The translations under genes were made by a program, and so were the position numbers. 22,373 bases of DNA from a bacterium. GTDB lineage: Bacteria > UBP7 > UBA6624. Under the pieces are notes generated by a model. The model saw nothing but the letters and a program-made list of their open reading frames with translations, made no database searches and was not told the origin of the DNA. Where the stretch lies: contig JACNFQ010000063.1 of NCBI GenBank assembly GCA_014384545.1, positions 1 through 22,373 of the forward strand. The letters are read 5' to 3'. This document shows positions 1 through 12,021 of this stretch, in pieces (position 1 is the first letter of the stretch; every line of letters begins with the position of its first letter).

Positions 1-20
1 GAGCCTCTTTCCTGCTCTCT

Positions 21-2393
21 GTGACCTCCCCCATTGGAGAGAGGCTTGCTGTGACGAATGGCGTAGAGGGGACGATCATTCACCATGAGCTCGCCATCAT
101 TCAGGGGACGGTAAGACCTTGGATCCGCAAGGTCAAGGTAGAGGGTCCTAACGGGACGACCCAATGGCCTGCAAGGGGCGGGTACTTTACAGCCTTAGTT
201 CCCCTAGAAGAAGGAAAGAACCGCATTACGCTTCACGGGGGCGGAAAGGAGAGCTTTACCTTGCGGTATCAACCTAGGGAGGAGGGTCCTCGTGTACGCC
301 TCGTTTATCTACTGGCACAAGACGAGAATGAAGACCATCTTTTTGATGCCCCCGAAGGGGGCGCACCAGAAAACCGCGATGCTTCAGCGGCAGCAGCCCG
401 CATCGCATTGGGGGCGAGACTCCTCCAAACAACCACGGCGGAGATGATGCATCGTGGTGGATGGGGGCGAAAGACATTCCGTCTTGAGAGGGATGGGGAG
501 GGCGAACCCATCGTCCATATCCTCCACACCAACCTAACAGAGAAGGCTGCTCGTAGCATGACGGGGTTTCAACTCTGGGGGCACATAAATGGCGAGATTG
601 CCTGCGACGGCGATGAAGGTTCCTGTGGAGAGCTGGGGGGTATCTCTAACAGAGGGCGCGATAAAGTGATTGTCCTTATGGCGTTCACCCACCTCGATCC
701 CAAGACGGGCGAAGTCGTTGCCCATACGGCGCTGGGCGGAGGCGAACTCGCCCTCTTTGGGTCGGCATCGCTCCATTCTTGGCCCACATCAGTTGACGAG
801 GTCCCCGATGCCTTTATGGATAGTACGCGGTACAAAGATATCTCTCCTCGCCTCCATGACGATTCCCACGGCAGGGGGACCTTTGGGGCAGCAGCAAGCA
901 CCACACTGGGCGCTGTGCTCCACGAGCTAGGGCATACTCTGGGGCTTCCCCACCTCGGCGGGGAATGGGTGATGCAACGAGGATTTGACAATAGCAACCG
1001 AGCGTTCCTCTCGGTGGAGATCGTGGGCTCTCGGGGGGGGAGGAGGGCAATCTCTCCGGGCGAAGCACCCCTCTGGCACCCCCTACATACCCTCCACCTG
1101 GCCCACAGTCCGTGGTTGGGAGGAAACGGAGACTTCCCGCCCCCTGTTCCTGTAGTAGAGGTAAAAGGAGGGGAGGTTTTTGTGGTGGGTGGGGCGCCTC
1201 TAACCTACCTTGCTGGGTGGGCCGACAACCACTACCTTTCCTATCAATCGTGGCCTGAAGGCGGATTCGAGAATGGGACGGTTCCCAGTGAGGATTACTT
1301 TACAGAAGGACCCTACCAATCTGTTGCACTCCGCTCCCAGAATATCTTGGGTGGTGGGATGGAGCGCGGATGGGGTATCGGTTTCTTGACGCCACCCAAA
1401 AAGACCCCACTTGGTCCCCTCGCTGTTCTGTGGCGGACTTGGGGGGTGGATGAGGCAGGAGAGACCACCGCAAGGTGGGAGGGAGTTACGGGGATGGGAG
1501 AGCGCATCCCACCGGTCGTTGGGGGGTCTGCTCCTGACAGAAACGAAGTCTACTGTGCCCTCCTTCCCGTTCCTGCCGAAGGGGAGGGGCGAGTGGTGGT
1601 GGATGCTACTCCAGACGGCATCCCGATGAGAACGATCGCCAACTGGGAGGAGGGGGCAGACAAGATGGAGATGAGTAGACCTTGGATTATTGCGCACCGA
1701 GGCGCCTCTGCCGCAGCGCCCGAGAACACACACTCTTCTTTGGATTTGGCGTGGCAGTTGGAAGCTGATGCTGCCGAAGTGGATATCAGGCTTACGCGTG
1801 ATGGAGTGATCGTCTTGATGCACGACAGCACGGTGGATCGAACGACCGATGGAGTGGGGCGTGTGAAGGAACTTACGCTGGAAGAACTCCAAGGATTGGA
1901 TGCGGGATCGTGGAAGGGCGAGGAGTGGGAAGGAGAACGCGTTCCCACCTTGGAGGACGTCTTGGCGCTCCATCCTGCCCACGGACAACGGTTGGTTGTG
2001 GAGATGAAAACGGGTCCCGAGATCCTCCCAGAACTCCAACGGGTCGTTGAAGCCTCGGGGATTGATCCTTCAGAGATTCTCTTCACTTCGTTTGATTTTG
2101 AGGTGGTCAAAGGAACAAAGAGAGTGCTTCCCTCCTACGAGGCGATATGGCTTGTTGCCTCCTTTGATACATCGATGATTGCCCAAGCGATAGACCACGG
2201 TATTGATGGGTTGGATATCCACTACAGCTCCATCAACGCCGATTCGGCGGCGTGCGTTCTGGGTGCTGGTCTTAGGTTGGTTTCTTGGACGGTTAACGAT
2301 GTGGTGGAGGGTATTCGGCTGAGATTACTGGGTGTGGAGGGCTTTACAACAGACCATCCCCAAGCGATGCGGGACGCTCTATTTATAGATTGA
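21..2393 (+). CDS. Metallopeptidase (HExxHxxGxxH) fused to glycerophosphodiester phosphodiesterase
   Basis: This 790-aa protein has two unrelated enzyme parts. Residues about 8-520 hold an N-terminal beta-type region and the metzincin zinc motif HELGHTLGLPH (His301, Glu302, His305, His311). The overall pattern recalls the putative metallopeptidase family typified by yeast YIL108W (Pfam PF12044). Residues about 551-790 are a GDPD domain: His559-Arg560 in IAHRG, the acidic EVD pair at Glu586 and Asp588, His601 in MHD, and a C-terminal SWTVND...GFTTDHP. GDPDs hydrolyse glycerophosphodiesters to glycerol-3-phosphate and an alcohol. The start used is GTG at 21, but the frame is open to the window edge, so a longer N-terminus or signal peptide is possible. 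A purine-rich ribosome-binding-like stretch (1645-1656) lies before ATG codons at 1665 and 1671, so the GDPD part may also be made alone. The 3' end lies in the left copy of the 263-bp repeat. The GDPD call is firm; the peptidase family call is from memory of the fold signature. Confidence 0.82.
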   Translation: MTSPIGERLAVTNGVEGTIIHHELAIIQGTVRPWIRKVKVEGPNGTTQWPARGGYFTALVPLEEGKNRITLHGGGKESFTLRYQPREEGPRVRLVYLLAQDENEDHLFDAPEGGAPENRDASAAAARIALGARLLQTTTAEMMHRGGWGRKTFRLERDGEGEPIVHILHTNLTEKAARSMTGFQLWGHINGEIACDGDEGSCGELGGISNRGRDKVIVLMAFTHLDPKTGEVVAHTALGGGELALFGSASLHSWPTSVDEVPDAFMDSTRYKDISPRLHDDSHGRGTFGAAASTTLGAVLHELGHTLGLPHLGGEWVMQRGFDNSNRAFLSVEIVGSRGGRRAISPGEAPLWHPLHTLHLAHSPWLGGNGDFPPPVPVVEVKGGEVFVVGGAPLTYLAGWADNHYLSYQSWPEGGFENGTVPSEDYFTEGPYQSVALRSQNILGGGMERGWGIGFLTPPKKTPLGPLAVLWRTWGVDEAGETTARWEGVTGMGERIPPVVGGSAPDRNEVYCALLPVPAEGEGRVVVDATPDGIPMRTIANWEEGADKMEMSRPWIIAHRGASAAAPENTHSSLDLAWQLEADAAEVDIRLTRDGVIVLMHDSTVDRTTDGVGRVKELTLEELQGLDAGSWKGEEWEGERVPTLEDVLALHPAHGQRLVVEMKTGPEILPELQRVVEASGIDPSEILFTSFDFEVVKGTKRVLPSYEAIWLVASFDTSMIAQAIDHGIDGLDIHYSSINADSAACVLGAGLRLVSWTVNDVVEGIRLRLLGVEGFTTDHPQAMRDALFID

Positions 2394-2509
2394 GCCCTCC
2401 TCTCTCATTTGAGATTGAAGAGGGAGGGAGCAAGAACGCCTTTCTGAAGGATGGAGAGGTGGCTGTCCATGTAGAGACTTCGAGGGGATCTTCCCGTCTT
2501 GTCGTCGCC
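2247..2509 (+). repeat. Left copy of 263-bp direct repeat flanking the AbiE insertion
   Basis: Positions 2247-2509 match 4814-5076 base for base at a constant offset of 2567, except position 2482 (G) versus 5049 (A). The repeat covers the last 49 codons of the GDPD gene, the TTGA stop/start overlap and the first 40 codons of the glycosidase-like gene. The single difference is a silent third-position change (TCG/TCA, Ser) in the glycosidase frame. Identity stops abruptly at both ends. This copy supplies the real 3' end of the GDPD gene; its glycosidase part is a dead fragment. Confidence 0.97.
2390..2509 (+). pseudogene. Orphan 5' fragment of the six-hairpin glycosidase gene
   Basis: The first 40 codons of the gene at 4957-6852 are repeated here, starting with the same TTG that overlaps the GDPD stop. 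After 2509 the frame runs into unrelated sequence and stops at 2680, so any product would be a 40-residue N-terminus with a foreign 56-residue tail. It is the left-hand debris of the duplication and no function is expected. Confidence 0.88.
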
Positions 2510-2541
2510 CTAGTCCTTTGGGTTGCCATGGTCTTCCCTTC

Positions 2542-2577
2542 GGCTCCTGCGGAGCCTCGTCCAGGGGGCAGAGCCCC
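2542..2577 (+). repeat. Two adjacent short hairpins
   Basis: GGCTCC (2542-2547) pairs with GGAGCC (2551-2556) across a 3-nt loop. GGGGC (2565-2569) pairs with GCCCC (2573-2577) across a 3-nt loop. They sit in the non-coding left arm of the insertion, about 160 bp before abiEi. They could be a REP-like element or a weak transcription stop for the upstream genes; there is no T-tract after them. Confidence 0.4.
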
Positions 2578-2707
2578 TAGGCTAAGGGGAGCGTTGCGGG
2601 ACGCGCCTGGAGAGACGAACCGCCTCCCTTTGAACGGCATGCGTATCGGCGCTCTGCAGGATTCACTCAGGGACCCCTGACTTTACGTTTCGTGGGGTTG
2701 ATGGGAA

Positions 2708-2733
2708 TTACATCCCCTATAATAGGGCTGTAA
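2708..2733 (+). promoter_or_regulatory. abiE promoter -10 inside a palindromic operator
   Basis: A consensus -10 box TATAAT lies at 2718-2723. It is the centre of the palindrome CCCTATAATAGGG (2715-2727), whose arms are perfect around a central A. TTACA (2708-2712) and TGTAA (2729-2733) form a second, outer pair of arms, and ACTTTAC (2680-2686) with GTAAAGT (2734-2740) a third. No good -35 is seen at normal spacing. AbiEi antitoxins of known systems repress their own operon by binding inverted repeats in the promoter, so a dyad centred on the -10 box just before abiEi is a strong operator candidate. Confidence 0.75.
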
Positions 2734-2738
2734 GTAAA

Positions 2739-3533
2739 GTGAAATCCCTTGAGTTCTTCGCCATCTATCCCGTCTTCTCCTTGGAGGAGGCTGTAGGGGC
2801 AGGTCTGTCTACGGGCGGGCGGGCGGGCACCTTGGATCTTCTGAAATACCATCTGGACACTGGGCGGCTCAAGCGCGTGGCCCGAGGGATCTATGCGGTC
2901 GTCGCCCCGGGTGTGGGTCCGAAGCGATTCCAGCCAGACCCCTTCATAGCCGCTTCGGCTGTGCGACCCGACGGTCTGTTTTCCCATCACGCAGCTTTGG
3001 AACTTCTGGGGGCCGCCCATTCCGTTTGGCGCGAGGTGACCTTGTACACGAATCGCCCTCACCGCCCCTTGGCCTTGCGAAGCGAGGTGCGGTTTCTGCA
3101 CCATCCGACAGCCCTTGTCGCTTGCCGAGATACGTTTCTCGGGACGCGCAAGGTAGAGCGGCAGGGGCGGGTGTTGCGAGCCACTGGACCTGAGCGGACC
3201 TTGGTGGAAGGGTTGCGCCGACCCCGCCTGGCAGGCGGGTTGGAAAACCTGGTGGCGTCCGCTGCGGGATTTCCTGTGCTCGATTTGGATCTCGTTCTCC
3301 ATCTCCTCGAGGTCTACGCCACCGGGGTCCTCTGGGGTGCAGCGGGGTGGTTCTTGGAGACACACAAGACGGCCTTTGCGGTTCCCCAGAGCATCTTCCA
3401 ACGCTTGGAGGACCGTCGCCCGGCTACACCGCGGTATCTTTTGCGAGACAGCCGGGGCGGTAAATTCGTGCGGCGCTGGAACCTGATCCTCCCGCCAGGG
3501 GCGGAGAGTTGGAGCGAGCCGGATGCCGGTTAG
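2739..3533 (+). CDS. abiEi: AbiEi-type antitoxin / transcriptional autorepressor
   Basis: This 264-aa protein belongs to the type IV toxin-antitoxin AbiEi family. The N-terminal quarter has a winged-helix-like segment with LLKYHLDTGRLKRVARGIY, the usual pattern by which AbiEi proteins begin (helix, then 'G.l.rv.rGiY'). The larger C-terminal part is needed in known systems to neutralise the toxin. The start chosen is GTG at 2739, about 9 nt after the expected transcription start. There is no clear Shine-Dalgarno, so translation may depend on a very short leader. It overlaps the toxin gene by 11 bp, the normal arrangement for this two-gene operon. AbiE systems act in phage defence by abortive infection and in stabilising mobile DNA. 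It lies inside a duplicated-flank insertion, which supports a mobile origin. Confidence 0.88.
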   Translation: MKSLEFFAIYPVFSLEEAVGAGLSTGGRAGTLDLLKYHLDTGRLKRVARGIYAVVAPGVGPKRFQPDPFIAASAVRPDGLFSHHAALELLGAAHSVWREVTLYTNRPHRPLALRSEVRFLHHPTALVACRDTFLGTRKVERQGRVLRATGPERTLVEGLRRPRLAGGLENLVASAAGFPVLDLDLVLHLLEVYATGVLWGAAGWFLETHKTAFAVPQSIFQRLEDRRPATPRYLLRDSRGGKFVRRWNLILPPGAESWSEPDAG

Positions 3534-4482
3534 CCTCCCGTTCCTCCAACGCTGTGCCGCCGAGACGGGGTTCGGGGAAGCGGCTCTGGAAAAGGTAGTG
3601 CACCTAGGGGAGCTGGCATCCCAGATCTCCAGCCATCCTCTTTTGGGAAAGGTTTTGGCTCTGAAGGGCGGCACAGCACTGAACCTCTCCCACGGCGAGC
3701 CCGCGCGCCTTTCCGTGGATTTGGACTTCAACTACGTTGGATCCCGGGGAAGAGCCGACATGTTGAAAGCGCGGCCAGAAGTGGAGGAGACCATAGAGAG
3801 GTTGGCTAGGCGTCTGGGATACCGAACCCAAAGGTCAGTGGATGCGCATGCGGGGCGAAAGGTCTACCTTCGCTATTCCTCGGTTTTGGGCTCGACCGAT
3901 CGAGTGGAAATCGACTTGAATTACCTGTTCCGCGTACCTGCCGGAGAACTGCGCCATCTCGCGCTGTGGCAGCCCGGGGGACTGGACCGGCCCCGGGTTC
4001 TCGCAGTCCCCTTGGTGGAACTCCTTGCGGGGAAGATCAACGCCCTGTTGGATCGGGTCGCCGTCAGGGATCTGTGGGATGTCAGCAGGTTGTCGTCCAC
4101 CGAGCCGGAGACACTCGCTTCACCGCGGTTCCGCGCATGGTTTTTGGCTCTGTCGGCTGTCTTGCCCCTTCCGCTCACCAAGTACGGCAAGGAGAGGCTG
4201 GAGACAAGGGTGACCACGGAACAGATCGGAGAGCGGCTGCTTCCTATGTTGGCTATGGGGCAGGAGGCGGTGGCTGAGGATCTCATTGACCGGGCGTGGG
4301 CGGTGGTTGCCCCCCTTCTCGATCTGAAGCCCAAGGAATTGGAATATGTTGAAAGGCTGCAAGAGGGGGACTTGCGACCCGGTCTGCTTTTTCCCGACGA
4401 CCCGACCATGACCGATCGGGTCGCCAACCATCCAGCAGTCCTTTGGAGATTGAAGAATATCCGCCGTCACATCGGTCTCTAG
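3523..4482 (+). CDS. abiEii: AbiEii nucleotidyltransferase toxin
   Basis: This 319-aa protein is of the AbiEii/AbiGii nucleotidyltransferase family (DUF1814). The polymerase-beta-like signature is present: LKGGTALNL (Gly49, Gly50, Thr51) followed by RLSVDLDFNYV (Asp66 and Asp68), which are the expected nucleotide and metal ligands. EIDLNYLF around residues 128-135 and the family motif KINALLDR...RDLWDV around residues 168-186 follow. Family members transfer nucleotides, for several members onto the tRNA acceptor stem, which stops growth. The key motifs look intact, so the toxin is probably active. The start ATG at 3523 lies inside the last codons of abiEi, giving coupled translation. Which nucleotide and which RNA it uses cannot be read from the sequence. 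Confidence 0.9.
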   Translation: MPVSLPFLQRCAAETGFGEAALEKVVHLGELASQISSHPLLGKVLALKGGTALNLSHGEPARLSVDLDFNYVGSRGRADMLKARPEVEETIERLARRLGYRTQRSVDAHAGRKVYLRYSSVLGSTDRVEIDLNYLFRVPAGELRHLALWQPGGLDRPRVLAVPLVELLAGKINALLDRVAVRDLWDVSRLSSTEPETLASPRFRAWFLALSAVLPLPLTKYGKERLETRVTTEQIGERLLPMLAMGQEAVAEDLIDRAWAVVAPLLDLKPKELEYVERLQEGDLRPGLLFPDDPTMTDRVANHPAVLWRLKNIRRHIGL

Positions 4483-4813
4483 AGCGGATTCGGGCTCGCA
4501 TTCTCGCGACGTCTTCGCCAGCAATCGGGTCGGGGTTTCCCCCGTTCACCGCCACATCCACATGGAAAACAAAACCCTCTTCCCCCGCCCTGAAGGGGTA
4601 GCCCGCCCTTGCCACCCTTTCCATAGGTACAAACCCTCATGCAAACCGGGTACAAACGGTTCGCCCAAGCGGGTACAATCAGTACGCCAAACCAAGTACA
4701 GAGAGAACGACATCAGGGAAAACCGAGCAGATTCAAGCAACCTAGAGAGCCCACTGGTGGAGGGCAGAAGGGCGATGGAGGTATACCAGCCGCGCATAGT
4801 TGAGGGTAGGGCA
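4483..4813. other. Non-coding right arm of the insertion
   Basis: These 331 bp between abiEii and the right repeat copy contain no convincing gene. The only distinctive structure is the 23-bp direct repeat array at 4626-4717. An open frame that begins at ATG 4562 enters the right repeat copy in the frame of the GDPD tail. It has no recognisable sequence before the repeat and is read as chance. No T-rich terminator hairpin was found after abiEii. Confidence 0.6.
4626..4717 (+). repeat. Array of four degenerate 23-bp direct repeats
   Basis: Units start at 4626, 4649, 4672 and 4695, exactly 23 bp apart. Units 1-3 open with GGTACAA and unit 4 with AGTACA. Units 2 and 3 agree at 17 of 23 positions, units 1 and 2 at 15, and units 1 and 3 at 15; unit 4 is weaker. 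Constant spacing near two helical turns is typical of a row of protein-binding sites, such as plasmid iterons or transposase sites at an element end. There is no rep or transposase gene beside it, so the role is open. Confidence 0.75.
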
Positions 4814-4960
4814 GCGGCGTGCGTTCTGGGTGCTGGTCTTAGGTTGGTTTCTTGGACGGTTAACGATGTGGTGGAGGGTATTCGGCTGAGATTACTGGGT
4901 GTGGAGGGCTTTACAACAGACCATCCCCAAGCGATGCGGGACGCTCTATTTATAGATTGA
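4814..4960 (+). pseudogene. Orphan 3' fragment of the GDPD gene
   Basis: The last 49 codons and stop of the GDPD gene are repeated here, cut off from the rest of that gene by the insertion. By chance an upstream frame from ATG 4562 continues into it without a stop, giving a possible 132-aa product whose C-terminal 49 residues equal the GDPD C-terminus. It has no catalytic residues. Translation through it could still feed ribosomes to the TTGA overlap of the glycosidase gene. Confidence 0.88.
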
Positions 4961-5076
4961 GCCCTCCTCTCTCATTTGAGATTGAAGAGGGAGGGAGCAA
5001 GAACGCCTTTCTGAAGGATGGAGAGGTGGCTGTCCATGTAGAGACTTCAAGGGGATCTTCCCGTCTTGTCGTCGCC
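4814..5076 (+). repeat. Right copy of 263-bp direct repeat
   Basis: This is the partner of 2247-2509, with 262 of 263 positions identical (A at 5049 against G at 2482). This copy supplies the real 5' end of the glycosidase-like gene, while its GDPD part is debris. Recombination between the copies would remove 2,567 bp and restore a single GDPD/glycosidase junction. Confidence 0.97.
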
Positions 5077-6852
5077 TTTCCCGCAGGAAACCTAGGTGTA
5101 GCCGTTTGGCTAGAGGATGGTACTTTCCAAGTAGAGGGTGCGTTGTCCCCTTCCATTCAGAAAGAGGGCATGAGAGGGGTCTCCTTCTCGCTCACTTCTC
5201 CCCAGAAGAGACTCTGTATCACAGAGACGGTCTTAGCCAATATCCGATTCATCCGTTCTCGCTGTGCCCAGGGGGTTCTTCCCCCCGAGGTTAGCTCCTC
5301 TCCACCAGCGTTCGCACCTTGGGTTTGGGAGAGGGTGTTGCTGGACGGGAATAAAGTCAGGTTCTCCCTCCACCCCCAAAGAGGAACATCTATAACATCA
5401 GATCCTCAAGGACGAATCAAGATCCAAGGGGGAAAAGATGGAATTTCCCTCCACGCAGAGGTGCTTTCGGATGCCCCCCCTCTAACCCCTCTCCCACCTG
5501 AGGCGCTGGTTCAGGAGGAGGCTGCAAGTTGGGTTGGGGTGCACGCTCTGGAGTTCTTGGTGTTCAAAGAGCTTTTTGGAGCGGGAAGTTGGAGGTATCT
5601 CACCTACTTTGGGAGAGATACCCTCATCACGCTTGCACTCCTCAAGCCGATATTGAAGAAGGAAGCACTCTTTCTTGGGTTGAGGAGTGTCCTAGAGCGT
5701 CTCTCCTACAAGGGGGAGGTTGCCCATGAAGAGGAAGTGGGAGAGTTTGCCGTTTGGGAGAGGATGCGTCACGACGAAAAACCTTCTTCTGCACCAAGAT
5801 TGGACAGGAAGATGATTGACGACGACTTCCTCCTTGCTCCCGTCTCGGCTCTCCTCTTGCTGGGGCAAGCGGAGAGCACGTGTCAGGAGTTCTTAGACGG
5901 GGTGGACCGTTCTGGGAGGACTCTTCGTGATGCTCTCTCCTTGAATCTGGATCTCGTAGTCAGTTTGGCAACGCCCTATGGAGAAAAGCCTTCTAGGGAG
6001 AACTTGATTCGGTTGAAATCGGGTGTTGTTGGTGATTGGAGGGACAGTACCGACGGGTTGTGCGGGGGGCAATACCCGTATAGTGTAAATGGTGCACTTG
6101 TCCCTGCAGCACTAGCGGCGGTGATTGCACTCTCGCGAATCCTCCCAGACCCTGAGAGGGTTGAAAGAGCAAAGAGACTCCTCGCTGTTTGGGAGGGTGC
6201 CACGGCACACTATAGGGTGGTGGTCCCTCAGGGGGAGGCAAGGGAGCGAATCTCTGCTTGGGCAGAAAGGAACGGTTTTGATGCCACAGTGGCCCTCTCC
6301 CAAACCACGGAACGCTTGGCATTCTCCGCACTCTCGCTGGGGGGTCACGGAAAGCCCATTCCCATTCTCCATTCAGACATTGTCTTTGACCTCTTCTTCA
6401 AAGAGCCTCATCCAAATTGTCTCGTGGGCATTCTTGATACGCTCTTCCGACCTTTCCCTTTGGGGTTACTTTCGCCAGTAGGGTTGATGGTAGCCAACCC
6501 CGTTCTTGCTCCCAGTGATGTTCAAGAACGGTGTACGAAGAACCACTACCACGGCACGGTTGTCTGGTCGTGGCCTATGGCGATGGCTGCAGCGGGGTTG
6601 GCGCGCCAACTTAGCAGAAAGGATTTACCCTCTATACTGCGAGAGAAGGTAGAAGACGCCCAAGGTGCCCTGTGGACGGTGATTCAGGAGAACGGGGCGT
6701 TTGGTCAGAGCGAATTGTGGAGTTGGTGCTCTGAAGGGGATGCAATGGAGGCTGTTCCCTTCGGTGCAGACCAGAGACACCGCACGGAGGGTAATCCGAT
6801 TCAGTTATGGAGTGTGATGGGGCTTGCTCTTGAGCCACCAACGATCACCTAG
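4957..6852 (+). CDS. Six-hairpin glycosidase-like protein (glycogen-debranching-type)
   Basis: This 631-aa protein has an N-terminal beta-rich region (about 1-180) and a C-terminal helical part. The latter contains YFGRDTL near residue 218, VAHEEEVGEFA, and DDDFLLAPVSALLLL. Such a pattern is seen in (alpha/alpha)6-barrel glycosidases and amylo-alpha-1,6-glucosidase-like proteins, with the acidic clusters as likely catalytic residues. The substrate is unknown. The start is TTG at 4957, overlapping the GDPD stop as TTGA. There is no Shine-Dalgarno before it, so translation was probably coupled to the upstream gene. An in-frame GTG at 5026 after a purine-rich stretch is an alternative. The AbiE insertion has separated the gene from its former operon partner and promoter, so its expression may now depend on read-through from abiE. 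It ends 17 bp from a convergent gene with no obvious terminator between them. Confidence 0.65.
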   Translation: MSPPLSFEIEEGGSKNAFLKDGEVAVHVETSRGSSRLVVAFPAGNLGVAVWLEDGTFQVEGALSPSIQKEGMRGVSFSLTSPQKRLCITETVLANIRFIRSRCAQGVLPPEVSSSPPAFAPWVWERVLLDGNKVRFSLHPQRGTSITSDPQGRIKIQGGKDGISLHAEVLSDAPPLTPLPPEALVQEEAASWVGVHALEFLVFKELFGAGSWRYLTYFGRDTLITLALLKPILKKEALFLGLRSVLERLSYKGEVAHEEEVGEFAVWERMRHDEKPSSAPRLDRKMIDDDFLLAPVSALLLLGQAESTCQEFLDGVDRSGRTLRDALSLNLDLVVSLATPYGEKPSRENLIRLKSGVVGDWRDSTDGLCGGQYPYSVNGALVPAALAAVIALSRILPDPERVERAKRLLAVWEGATAHYRVVVPQGEARERISAWAERNGFDATVALSQTTERLAFSALSLGGHGKPIPILHSDIVFDLFFKEPHPNCLVGILDTLFRPFPLGLLSPVGLMVANPVLAPSDVQERCTKNHYHGTVVWSWPMAMAAAGLARQLSRKDLPSILREKVEDAQGALWTVIQENGAFGQSELWSWCSEGDAMEAVPFGADQRHRTEGNPIQLWSVMGLALEPPTIT

Positions 6853-6869: not shown

Positions 6870-7697
6870 CTAGTTGCAGTTAGCGAAGCAGCCAAGGGCT
6901 GTGCGGAGAAGCCAATCTGTTAGGAGGGGGTGGGGTGCGAGACCTTTTCCATCAGAGAGATAATCAAGGCCCTCTAACACATCGGTATAGGGGCCAAAAC
7001 CTGCTACACGGAGAGGAATCACGATCGCTGTTCCCAAGGCAGAGGCGTCTTCAACGAATGAACGAATCCGTTTTTCAGCTGCTTCTCTGGGGCCTTCCCA
7101 ATCTTCTCGGAGTGTATCTACCCGCACTTCACGGTATCCATCCCTTGCCAAGAGACGTGCATGTTGGCGCATCGCACGGAGCCAAGCATCGTTCTCTTCT
7201 TCATTTCCTGTTCCGTGGGAGAGGATTAGAACACTCTCTGTAGAAGGATCTACCGAGAGAGCTTGGGCACGCTCGCGGAGGATACGCCCCACACGAGAGT
7301 CCTCAATAAGGTTTTTTGGAGACCAAAGAAGGGTCGCTTCGGTCTTGACTTGAGATAATGGGTGCATCGAATAAGGAGGTGGTTCATCAGAGAAACCCAA
7401 GATGTAATGGTTGGCTCCTTTAAACGAGGAAGATGAGAGGAAGAGAGGCAATACAACGATTCGTGTTGCTCCCTGCTCCTCCAGCATCGTTAGCGAGGTT
7501 TGAATCGTTTCGGGGTTTGCCATCCCAAAGGCGACCTCCACGGGGAAACGCTCCTCCAAGGGTGTCACAGTTTCATGGATAAGAGCGTTCCATGCCTCTC
7601 CGCCGCCATGTGCCAGCACCAAGATACCCCAATGGGAAGAACAGCCTGCCAAGAAGAGGGCAAGGATGGGGACGCCCTTATTGAGAATCGCTCGCAT
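6870..7697 (-). CDS. Lipoprotein with two CbiX/SirB-like chelatase halves
   Basis: This 275-aa protein begins with a lipoprotein signal (MRAILNKGVPILALFLAGC, lipid-attached Cys19), so it should sit outside the cytoplasm. The mature part resembles CbiX/sirohydrochlorin chelatases. The first half has LVLAHGG with His30 and GATRIVVLPLFLSSSS; the second half has LILSHGTGNEE with His161. In CbiX such histidines bind the metal inserted into the tetrapyrrole. Cytosolic chelatases have no lipobox, so an exported version is unusual, and it may bind or handle metal rather than insert it. The promoter is close: TATAAT lies 6 bp before the ATG, so the mRNA is probably leaderless. It stands alone on the reverse strand. 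The family call is good; the activity is unknown. Confidence 0.72.
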   Translation of the reverse strand: MRAILNKGVPILALFLAGCSSHWGILVLAHGGGEAWNALIHETVTPLEERFPVEVAFGMANPETIQTSLTMLEEQGATRIVVLPLFLSSSSFKGANHYILGFSDEPPPYSMHPLSQVKTEATLLWSPKNLIEDSRVGRILRERAQALSVDPSTESVLILSHGTGNEEENDAWLRAMRQHARLLARDGYREVRVDTLREDWEGPREAAEKRIRSFVEDASALGTAIVIPLRVAGFGPYTDVLEGLDYLSDGKGLAPHPLLTDWLLRTALGCFANCN

Positions 7698-7703
7698 TAG
7701 GGG

Positions 7704-7709
7704 ATTATA
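7704..7709 (-). promoter_or_regulatory. -10 box of a leaderless promoter
   Basis: On the reverse strand TATAAT is followed by six bases (CCCCTA) and then the ATG of the CbiX-like lipoprotein gene. Transcription would begin at or next to the ATG. No clear -35 is seen and no Shine-Dalgarno is possible. Confidence 0.65.
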
Positions 7710-7800
7710 CGACTATGGTTTCCCTCACGGAGTAGACGGATGCCAATGCGTGGAATCTGAATGTGGGCAGGCGTGGACATGAGGGACGGAGACCAGAGAA

Positions 7801-7827
7801 GGACGCATGCGTCCGGCTCTGCGCCGG
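7801..7827. repeat. Palindrome and adjoining hairpin
   Basis: GGACGCATGCGTCC (7801-7814) is a perfect 14-bp palindrome. It runs into CCGGC (7813-7817) paired with GCCGG (7823-7827) over a 5-nt loop. It lies in a 239-bp gap (7698-7936) with no convincing gene. It may be a protein-binding site or an RNA hairpin ending the alpha/beta hydrolase transcript, which would reach here on the reverse strand. Confidence 0.5.
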
Positions 7828-7853
7828 AGCACCCGACATGGTGGCTCGGAAAA

Positions 7854-7900
7854 CCACAACCCCCGACCTAACGGAGAGCCACAACCCAGCCCCTAACGGA
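7854..7900. repeat. Pair of 22-bp direct repeats, 25 bp apart
   Basis: 7854-7875 and 7879-7900 share CCACAACCC at the start and CCTAACGGA at the end, with four central bases different (18 of 22 identical). They are just downstream of the stop codon of the reverse-strand alpha/beta hydrolase. Their role is unknown. Confidence 0.65.
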
Positions 7901-10853: not shown

Positions 10854-12021
10854 CTAGAAGTTGCCGCAGCCACACCAAAGATTCTTCTCTGCGCCATTGG
10901 CGGGAAGAAAGGGGACCAAAGGCGACATCGGTATGTCTCCCCAATCCCACCACCCTGTAGTCCACTTCAACGCCACCTTCACGCAACTTTGATACGAGAC
11001 TATTGGTAGATGGTGCAGGGACAATACTATCCAGCCCCCCCTGATAGATGAGTAAGGGTGCGGTTTGGTGGTAAGTCTGGATATCGTTCTCTACAAACCC
11101 CTTCTCCAATGCTGGCCATGCCGACAGATCGCCCTCTTGCCAATCATGGATTAGCGTGTCAGAGAAGATAGCAGAAGGGTCTTTACCTATTCCCCTAACA
11201 AAGGAATCATTCCCACCTTGACACTTCGAAGCGGCTAGGGAATCGATACGGGCTTCCATTCCCGGTGCCCAAACAGGGGGGCCTTCGTTCCCATAGTGGT
11301 CCAGCCAAGAGTGGACAAGCCATGCGTAGTAGGCCAAGTGGGTTCCTGGGACATCTACATACGCTCCCCAGCCCTCTAGAGAAAGATGGGAGGGTGCTGC
11401 GGCACCAAAAGCCCGAATAGCTAACTCCGGTGCATAACCCTCATGTTGGGCAGCGGTGCCGATAACGGCATGCCCTCCTTGTGAAACCCCCACCACGGCA
11501 CTCTTCCCACTTAGAGGAATCTCAAAGATTCTCCCCAGATTTTCCATCGCACGAAGCGCATCCAAGATAGAGCGACCCTCAACTTCAGAGACCAAGTAAG
11601 GGTGGTTCCCCTCCGTGCCCAACCCTGCATAGTCCACAGCGACCCCCACCATTCCCCTAGCTCCCATTGAACCTGCTAGATCTACACCGTAAAGGGAGTT
11701 GCCCGGTGCACATACATCACCCGTTCCCACCGTCCAAGGTGCCAGTGCAACGACATGCCAACCAAGGGGAGGAGGTGCCAACCCAAAGGGAACAGTGATC
11801 GTTGCCCTTGCCGTCCGTCCATCCGAAGCGAAAGAGACTTGATAAACGGAATAGCCATTCTCCACCTCTGTCCCTATCCCGATCTCATTAGCGATTTCTT
11901 CCCTTCTGTAATCGCCCCATAGGGTGATGGACTTTAGGCATCCATTATGGACACAATCGGGTCGAACACCTTGATCCCAATCTTCCCCCACCCAAGACGC
12001 CAAAGCAAGATAGGCGACCAT
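10843..12021 (-). CDS. Secretory-lipase-like alpha/beta hydrolase
   Basis: This 392-aa protein resembles the LIP/secretory lipase family of alpha/beta hydrolases. It has VALAPWTVGTGD and GVAVDYAGLGT strands, the nucleophile elbow GVSQGGH (Ser180), Asp in YQGGLDSIVPAP and His in GLGRHTDVAFG. The start ATG 12021 is chosen because AAAGGGGG lies 2-3 bases before it. The longer frame to 12132 would overlap the aquaporin gene by about 80 bp. The N-terminus is hydrophobic but short, so export is uncertain. It has several cysteines (for example DCVHNGC near residue 23), as in extracytoplasmic proteins. It follows the aquaporin gene by 29 bp and probably shares its mRNA. Confidence 0.72.
   Translation of the reverse strand: MVAYLALASWVGEDWDQGVRPDCVHNGCLKSITLWGDYRREEIANEIGIGTEVENGYSVYQVSFASDGRTARATITVPFGLAPPPLGWHVVALAPWTVGTGDVCAPGNSLYGVDLAGSMGARGMVGVAVDYAGLGTEGNHPYLVSEVEGRSILDALRAMENLGRIFEIPLSGKSAVVGVSQGGHAVIGTAAQHEGYAPELAIRAFGAAAPSHLSLEGWGAYVDVPGTHLAYYAWLVHSWLDHYGNEGPPVWAPGMEARIDSLAASKCQGGNDSFVRGIGKDPSAIFSDTLIHDWQEGDLSAWPALEKGFVENDIQTYHQTAPLLIYQGGLDSIVPAPSTNSLVSKLREGGVEVDYRVVGLGRHTDVAFGPLSSRQWRREESLVWLRQLLDGE

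Follow-up and report, generated by a model that had tools for sequence, protein, structure and literature searches.

How does a small defence module that carries no recombinase come to lie at the junction of two overlapping genes and leave both of them whole? This question is raised by a 22,373-nt stretch of DNA (the window), which is the whole of contig C43 in a metagenome-assembled genome (MAG) of 1.39 Mb, 107 contigs and 79% completeness, and it belongs to a wider open question, the movement of small defence modules without recombinases. The features of the window that matter here are the following:

3..2393, + strand: upstream ORF with Metallopep and GDPD domains, truncated by the contig start and kept whole at its other end thanks to R1
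2247..2509, no strand: R1, left copy of the duplicated target, with the 3' end of the GDPD ORF and an orphan start of the next gene
2510..4813, no strand: X, the insert of 2,304 bp, enclosed by R1 and R2
2708..2733, no strand: imperfect inverted repeat TTACATCCCCTATAATAGGGCTGTAA, overlapping a TATAAT box directly upstream of abiEi
2739..3533, + strand: abiEi, predicted antitoxin (PF13338 at its cut-off; PADLOC AbiEi E = 1.5e-63, 259/264 residues)
3523..4482, + strand: abiEii, predicted nucleotidyltransferase toxin (PF08843 E = 3.9e-25; PADLOC AbiEii E = 2.6e-81)
4562..4960, + strand: an entry of the ORF list, running from X into R2 in the GDPD frame
4814..5076, no strand: R2, right copy, with an orphan GDPD 3' end and the putative functional start of the downstream gene
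4957..6852, + strand: downstream ORF with no family assigned, whole thanks to R2

R1 and R2 form a direct repeat of 263 nt at a spacing of 2567, identical at 262 of 263 positions (99.6%), so that a long copy of the target stands on both sides of the inserted module. The sole mismatch (G vs A at 2482) is silent in the frame of the downstream gene (TCG/TCA). The edges are sharp, identity dropping immediately beyond the repeat to 35/120 and 36/120, which is the level of chance. This is the only repeat of at least 30 nt in the window; neither a further copy of R (with the nearly complete MAG searched) nor a second copy of X was found in the MAG. A tblastn hint that the right end of X is homologous to GDPD past R2 was rejected, the extension being at chance level.

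In the unduplicated junction the GDPD stop and the downstream start overlap (TTGA). In the window, the GDPD ORF stops at 2393 inside R1, while the downstream ORF starts with the TTG at 4957 inside R2. Because of the overlap, at least one of the two genes would be broken by an insertion that lacked such a duplication. It is probable that an AbiE module was inserted at this two-gene junction with a long target duplication that spared both neighbours. The ORF at 4562..4960 may preserve translational coupling to the downstream gene, or may be there by chance.

No recombinase was found among the ORFs of the window, no transposase ORF in the insert, and neither tRNA or Rfam RNAs nor inverted repeats of at least 30 nt in the window. 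The transposase, terminal inverted repeats and short target duplication of a transposon or insertion sequence are thus missing, the duplication being 263 bp long. An integrase-borne island would be marked by an integrase and by short attachment cores at a tRNA or at the end of a gene; the window has neither an integrase nor a tRNA. The sequence-only reading of this DNA had described two 263-bp copies with one silent mismatch, abiEi-abiEii between them, a left copy completing the upstream gene and a right copy restoring the downstream start, a duplication too long for a transposon target site and no recombinase, all of which agrees with our results; the insert consists of abiEi-abiEii and short flanks only. 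Its gene labels fared less well. The GDPD domain is present, although not alone, as the same ORF (window 3-2393) joins it to an upstream Metallopep domain, either as a fusion or for lack of a start signal, and the downstream gene, called a glycosidase, gave no Pfam or NCBIfam match.

The predicted antitoxin and nucleotidyltransferase genes lie in one operon, and in an alignment the KGGT and SxDxD motifs of AbiEii are conserved with its relatives, features consistent with membership of the AbiE family. The G+C content of abiEi is at the 99th and that of abiEii at the 98th percentile among the genes of the MAG, a base composition foreign to it. The inverted repeat at 2708..2733 is a candidate promoter or operator; its hairpin is weak (z -1.4), and a consensus promoter scan made no call there. 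Positions 2677-2721 match, over 45 nt, sequence that lies upstream of abiE in another genome (L166). AbiEii was found in none of the viral contigs searched and only as one distant match in phage records, and a search of solved structures by sequence matched no relative.

We compared the nearly complete MAG all against all for spaced repeats and removed paralogues and tRNA pairs. It is evident from the remaining cases that gene-sparing duplication in this genome is not limited to AbiE, and that older insertions built in the same way are present in the MAG, one of them at another junction of overlapping genes. In the latter (L065, contig C61), copies at 4523-4606 and 7382-7467, 84% identical, flank a 2.8-kb insert of uncharacterised genes. 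The duplicated piece comprises the end of a FAD-oxidoreductase gene and the overlapping start (GTGA) of a metallophosphoesterase gene; the oxidoreductase gene is completed in the left copy and the phosphoesterase gene begins in the right one, whose respective orphan halves have degenerated, with a 2-nt deletion among the changes. Elsewhere in L065 (9951-10022 and 12295-12366), 72 nt of the 3' end of a SRAP gene are duplicated with 92% identity around a two-gene module of uncharacterised proteins. In L093 (2-86 and 3578-3665), the duplicated piece belongs to a CstA-like gene (84%), its left copy abutting the contig end; genes related to the two-gene module recur there, between the CstA-like copies, and elsewhere.

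This repeated module encodes a secreted-looking Cys-rich protein and a lipoprotein-like protein, with no Pfam match where tested, and at some of its sites it is flanked by duplicated pieces of neighbouring genes. It occurs at:

L093, 120-3553
L065, 1107-1955 and 10625-12217
L099, 6320-7782
L009, 4998-7833
L101, 9059-9286

Several other spaced repeats were set aside, those of L053 and C41 as tRNA-like pairs and those of L054 as paralogues, and L099 and C35 were rejected as junction duplications, being displaced gene fragments. The same applies to L040, where a 110-bp piece of a CusA-like gene (4078-4187) has a 95% copy 3.6 kb away (7679-7787), upstream of its own operon, and was taken as a displaced copy. 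Intergenic repeats of about 110-170 bp, rich in palindromes, are also scattered over the MAG, at 7770-7875 of the window and at many other sites, and contigs often terminate in such repeats. A segment nested in them resembles window 2536-2589, and the match of the left part of X in contig C77, beside a toxin-antitoxin pair, is this 54-nt segment only.

Is the arrangement seen at other AbiE loci? We surveyed 80 of them from other genomes, of which 71 were testable, counting a repeat only if the locus had exactly two copies of it and deriving the expectation from pseudo-modules slid along the same loci. Direct two-copy repeats of 38-224 bp hugged the module at six of the 71 loci (L169, L171, L199, L208, L236 and L242), against 0.22 expected, and none of 200,000 simulations reached six; the survey was devised after the window had been seen, and p stayed below 0.001 for all of the several length cut-offs tried. 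Other AbiE modules between copies of neighbouring sequence, for which the sequence-only reading had proposed a search, do thus exist. Two of the six were set aside as clean cases, L199 because further members of its repeat family are scattered over the genome and L171 for a repeat that ends in repetitive sequence. The four clean cases left come from four unrelated groups; in each, the inserted DNA is little more than the abiE operon itself, and the host sequence that is duplicated changes from locus to locus:

L169, 105 bp: a whole tRNA-Glu and its flank
L208, 38 bp: the 3' half of a tRNA-Val
L236, a gammaproteobacterial locus, 41 bp: the 5' half of a tRNA-Lys
L242, a Bacteroidota locus, 144 bp: the 3' end of a gene that we take, from our own reading of its sequence, to be PLD-like

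A further locus, L170, has 82-bp copies (7559-7640 and 11003-11084), including the start of the next gene, around a 3.4-kb island that holds AbiE and another small gene pair; its relatives show no clean empty site.

Empty sites were recovered for two of the clean cases. Five species of the same genus as L242 have a single 144-bp copy and no AbiE at the orthologous site, where sequence matching the left flank through the end of R1 runs on without a break into sequence matching R2 and the right flank, the 144 bp being shared, as confirmed in L248. In one of the five (G400), whose orthologous site is empty, AbiE adjoins a paralogous copy of the PLD-like gene. For L236, two genomes (G539 and G540) have the tRNA-Lys adjoining the right-hand gene without AbiE, and in L254 (from G539) R2 and the right flank of L236 align to a single tRNA-Lys and its flank. 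These empty sites show that other lineages, too, have acquired AbiE by insertion with a long duplication of the target.

For the locus in the window, no empty site was found among the relatives compared, the phylum being represented by three genomes, and the two others have neither the downstream gene nor AbiEii. The sequence-only reading had raised the caveat of an assembly artefact, and it stands. Could the assembler have joined an intact single-copy junction with a separate R-X molecule, or the sequences of two strains? Contig ends in the MAG share exactly 55 nt, which implies a de Bruijn assembly with k = 55, and with 235 identical bases in the repeat, read pairs were needed to cross it. 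In a short-read MAG of this kind, 79% complete, k-mers by themselves do not distinguish R-X-R from an R-X circle accompanied by an empty site. The contig, however, could be formed only with both the R-X and the X-R junction in the reads, the same anatomy occurs elsewhere together with empty sites, and an artefact cannot account for the older, diverged cases in the same MAG. We thus regard an assembly error as improbable, and a real insertion as the better reading of this indirect evidence.

As to how such an insertion could proceed, the target was probably copied while the insertion break was being repaired, through repair synthesis or a template switch rather than by a dedicated enzyme. The left copy completes the upstream gene and the right copy starts the downstream one, and selection would keep those events that spare genes. 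If two genes overlap, both can escape damage only when the insertion duplicates their junction, which would explain the tidiness of both junction cases in the MAG. Target copying during break repair would also explain first events at unrelated sites and the variable repeat length, and the repeats left behind may permit later excision or amplification by homologous recombination. A different route had been put forward as the simplest model by the sequence-only reading, namely a Campbell-type integration in which a circle of about 2,567 bp carrying R and X recombined with the single chromosomal R to give R-X-R. Its geometry does fit, and the G400 AbiE beside a paralogous PLD-like gene is what a homology-guided move would produce, but the circle must first acquire the host fragment, this fragment differs between AbiE loci, and no circle or second copy was seen in viral contigs or in the MAG. 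Since the circle must already hold a host fragment from an earlier R-X-R, the first insertion is left unexplained, and we consider it rather unlikely that this locus arose in this way. Campbell circles may account for spread inside a species or from one paralogous gene to another, of which the Bacteroidota locus may be an example; between repair-type copying and a circle-mediated route we would give about equal weight to each.

Two further scenarios have points in their favour. The junction may have been tandemly duplicated before AbiE DNA replaced the middle in a second event, and the MAG does have many short tandem duplications as well as the displaced 110-bp CusA-like piece; yet two events would be needed for an anatomy that recurs around AbiE, and we find this very improbable. 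A recombinase acting in trans might also have integrated the module site-specifically, through a long attachment site that the module brings along; targets that include tRNA genes and gene ends, as in integrase-borne islands, speak for this. It is very improbable given repeats of 38-263 bp that are a different host sequence each time and have no common core, a copied piece in L236 that is the 5' half of a tRNA, and inserts devoid of an integrase. The tRNA cases of AbiE insertion could nevertheless stem from such recombinases.

Insertion with a long target duplication, which we retain as the probable description of this locus, is not a new kind of event. According to PMC1643837, it was named from a comparison of two Helicobacter pylori genomes, with restriction-modification genes; the original description is credited to Nobusato et al. 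(2000, Gene 259:99) in PMC1643837, PMC3031569 and PMC2749054. Target duplications of long and variable size can accompany the insertion of restriction-modification systems of all types, as stated in PMC3031569 and also in PMC2749054. In our literature search no paper joined AbiEii with target duplication, so that AbiE as a cargo appears unreported, and the papers examined among those joining toxin-antitoxin systems with long target duplications cite the 2000 paper or concern restriction-modification. The sequence-only reading had seen here a mobility route worth naming; the route is recurrent for AbiE (6/71 loci, with empty sites), although it had been named already in 2000 (PMC1643837, PMC3031569).

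AbiE is now linked to a 25-year-old, little-explained pattern of restriction-modification genes, with empty sites in two other lineages. We tentatively suggest, as a possibility that we hold with some reserve, that AbiE operons are by themselves compact mobile units without a recombinase that cross phyla, like restriction-modification genes, through an insertion process in which some 40-260 bp of the target are copied. If true, addiction modules would have in common a general, host-driven way into genomes, and AbiE loci offer places where the target-copying step can be tested.

Among known systems, AbiE type IV toxin-antitoxin systems have the same abiEi-abiEii operon of overlapping genes from the expected families; the genes here are ordinary, and what differs is the duplicated host junction that flanks them. 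Integrase-borne islands also keep the target gene intact by duplicating one piece of it, whereas here both neighbours are spared, without a recombinase, by a 263-bp duplication with no common core. Campbell insertion-duplication by a non-replicating circle is laboratory practice, and ends in the same R-X-R structure, but presupposes a circle with the host fragment in it, and no such circle was seen here. Closest is the insertion with long target duplication, with which our case shares a compact addiction-type module, a long and variable direct duplication and no need of a transposase; relatives of the restriction-modification cases have the empty site, as do those of AbiE at L242 and L236. It differs in its host, a rare phylum, with AbiE cases in several other groups, and in its cargo, a type IV toxin-antitoxin operon and not restriction-modification genes, which makes it a variant of the original kind: a known kind of event with a different cargo, AbiE, that is recurrent across phyla.
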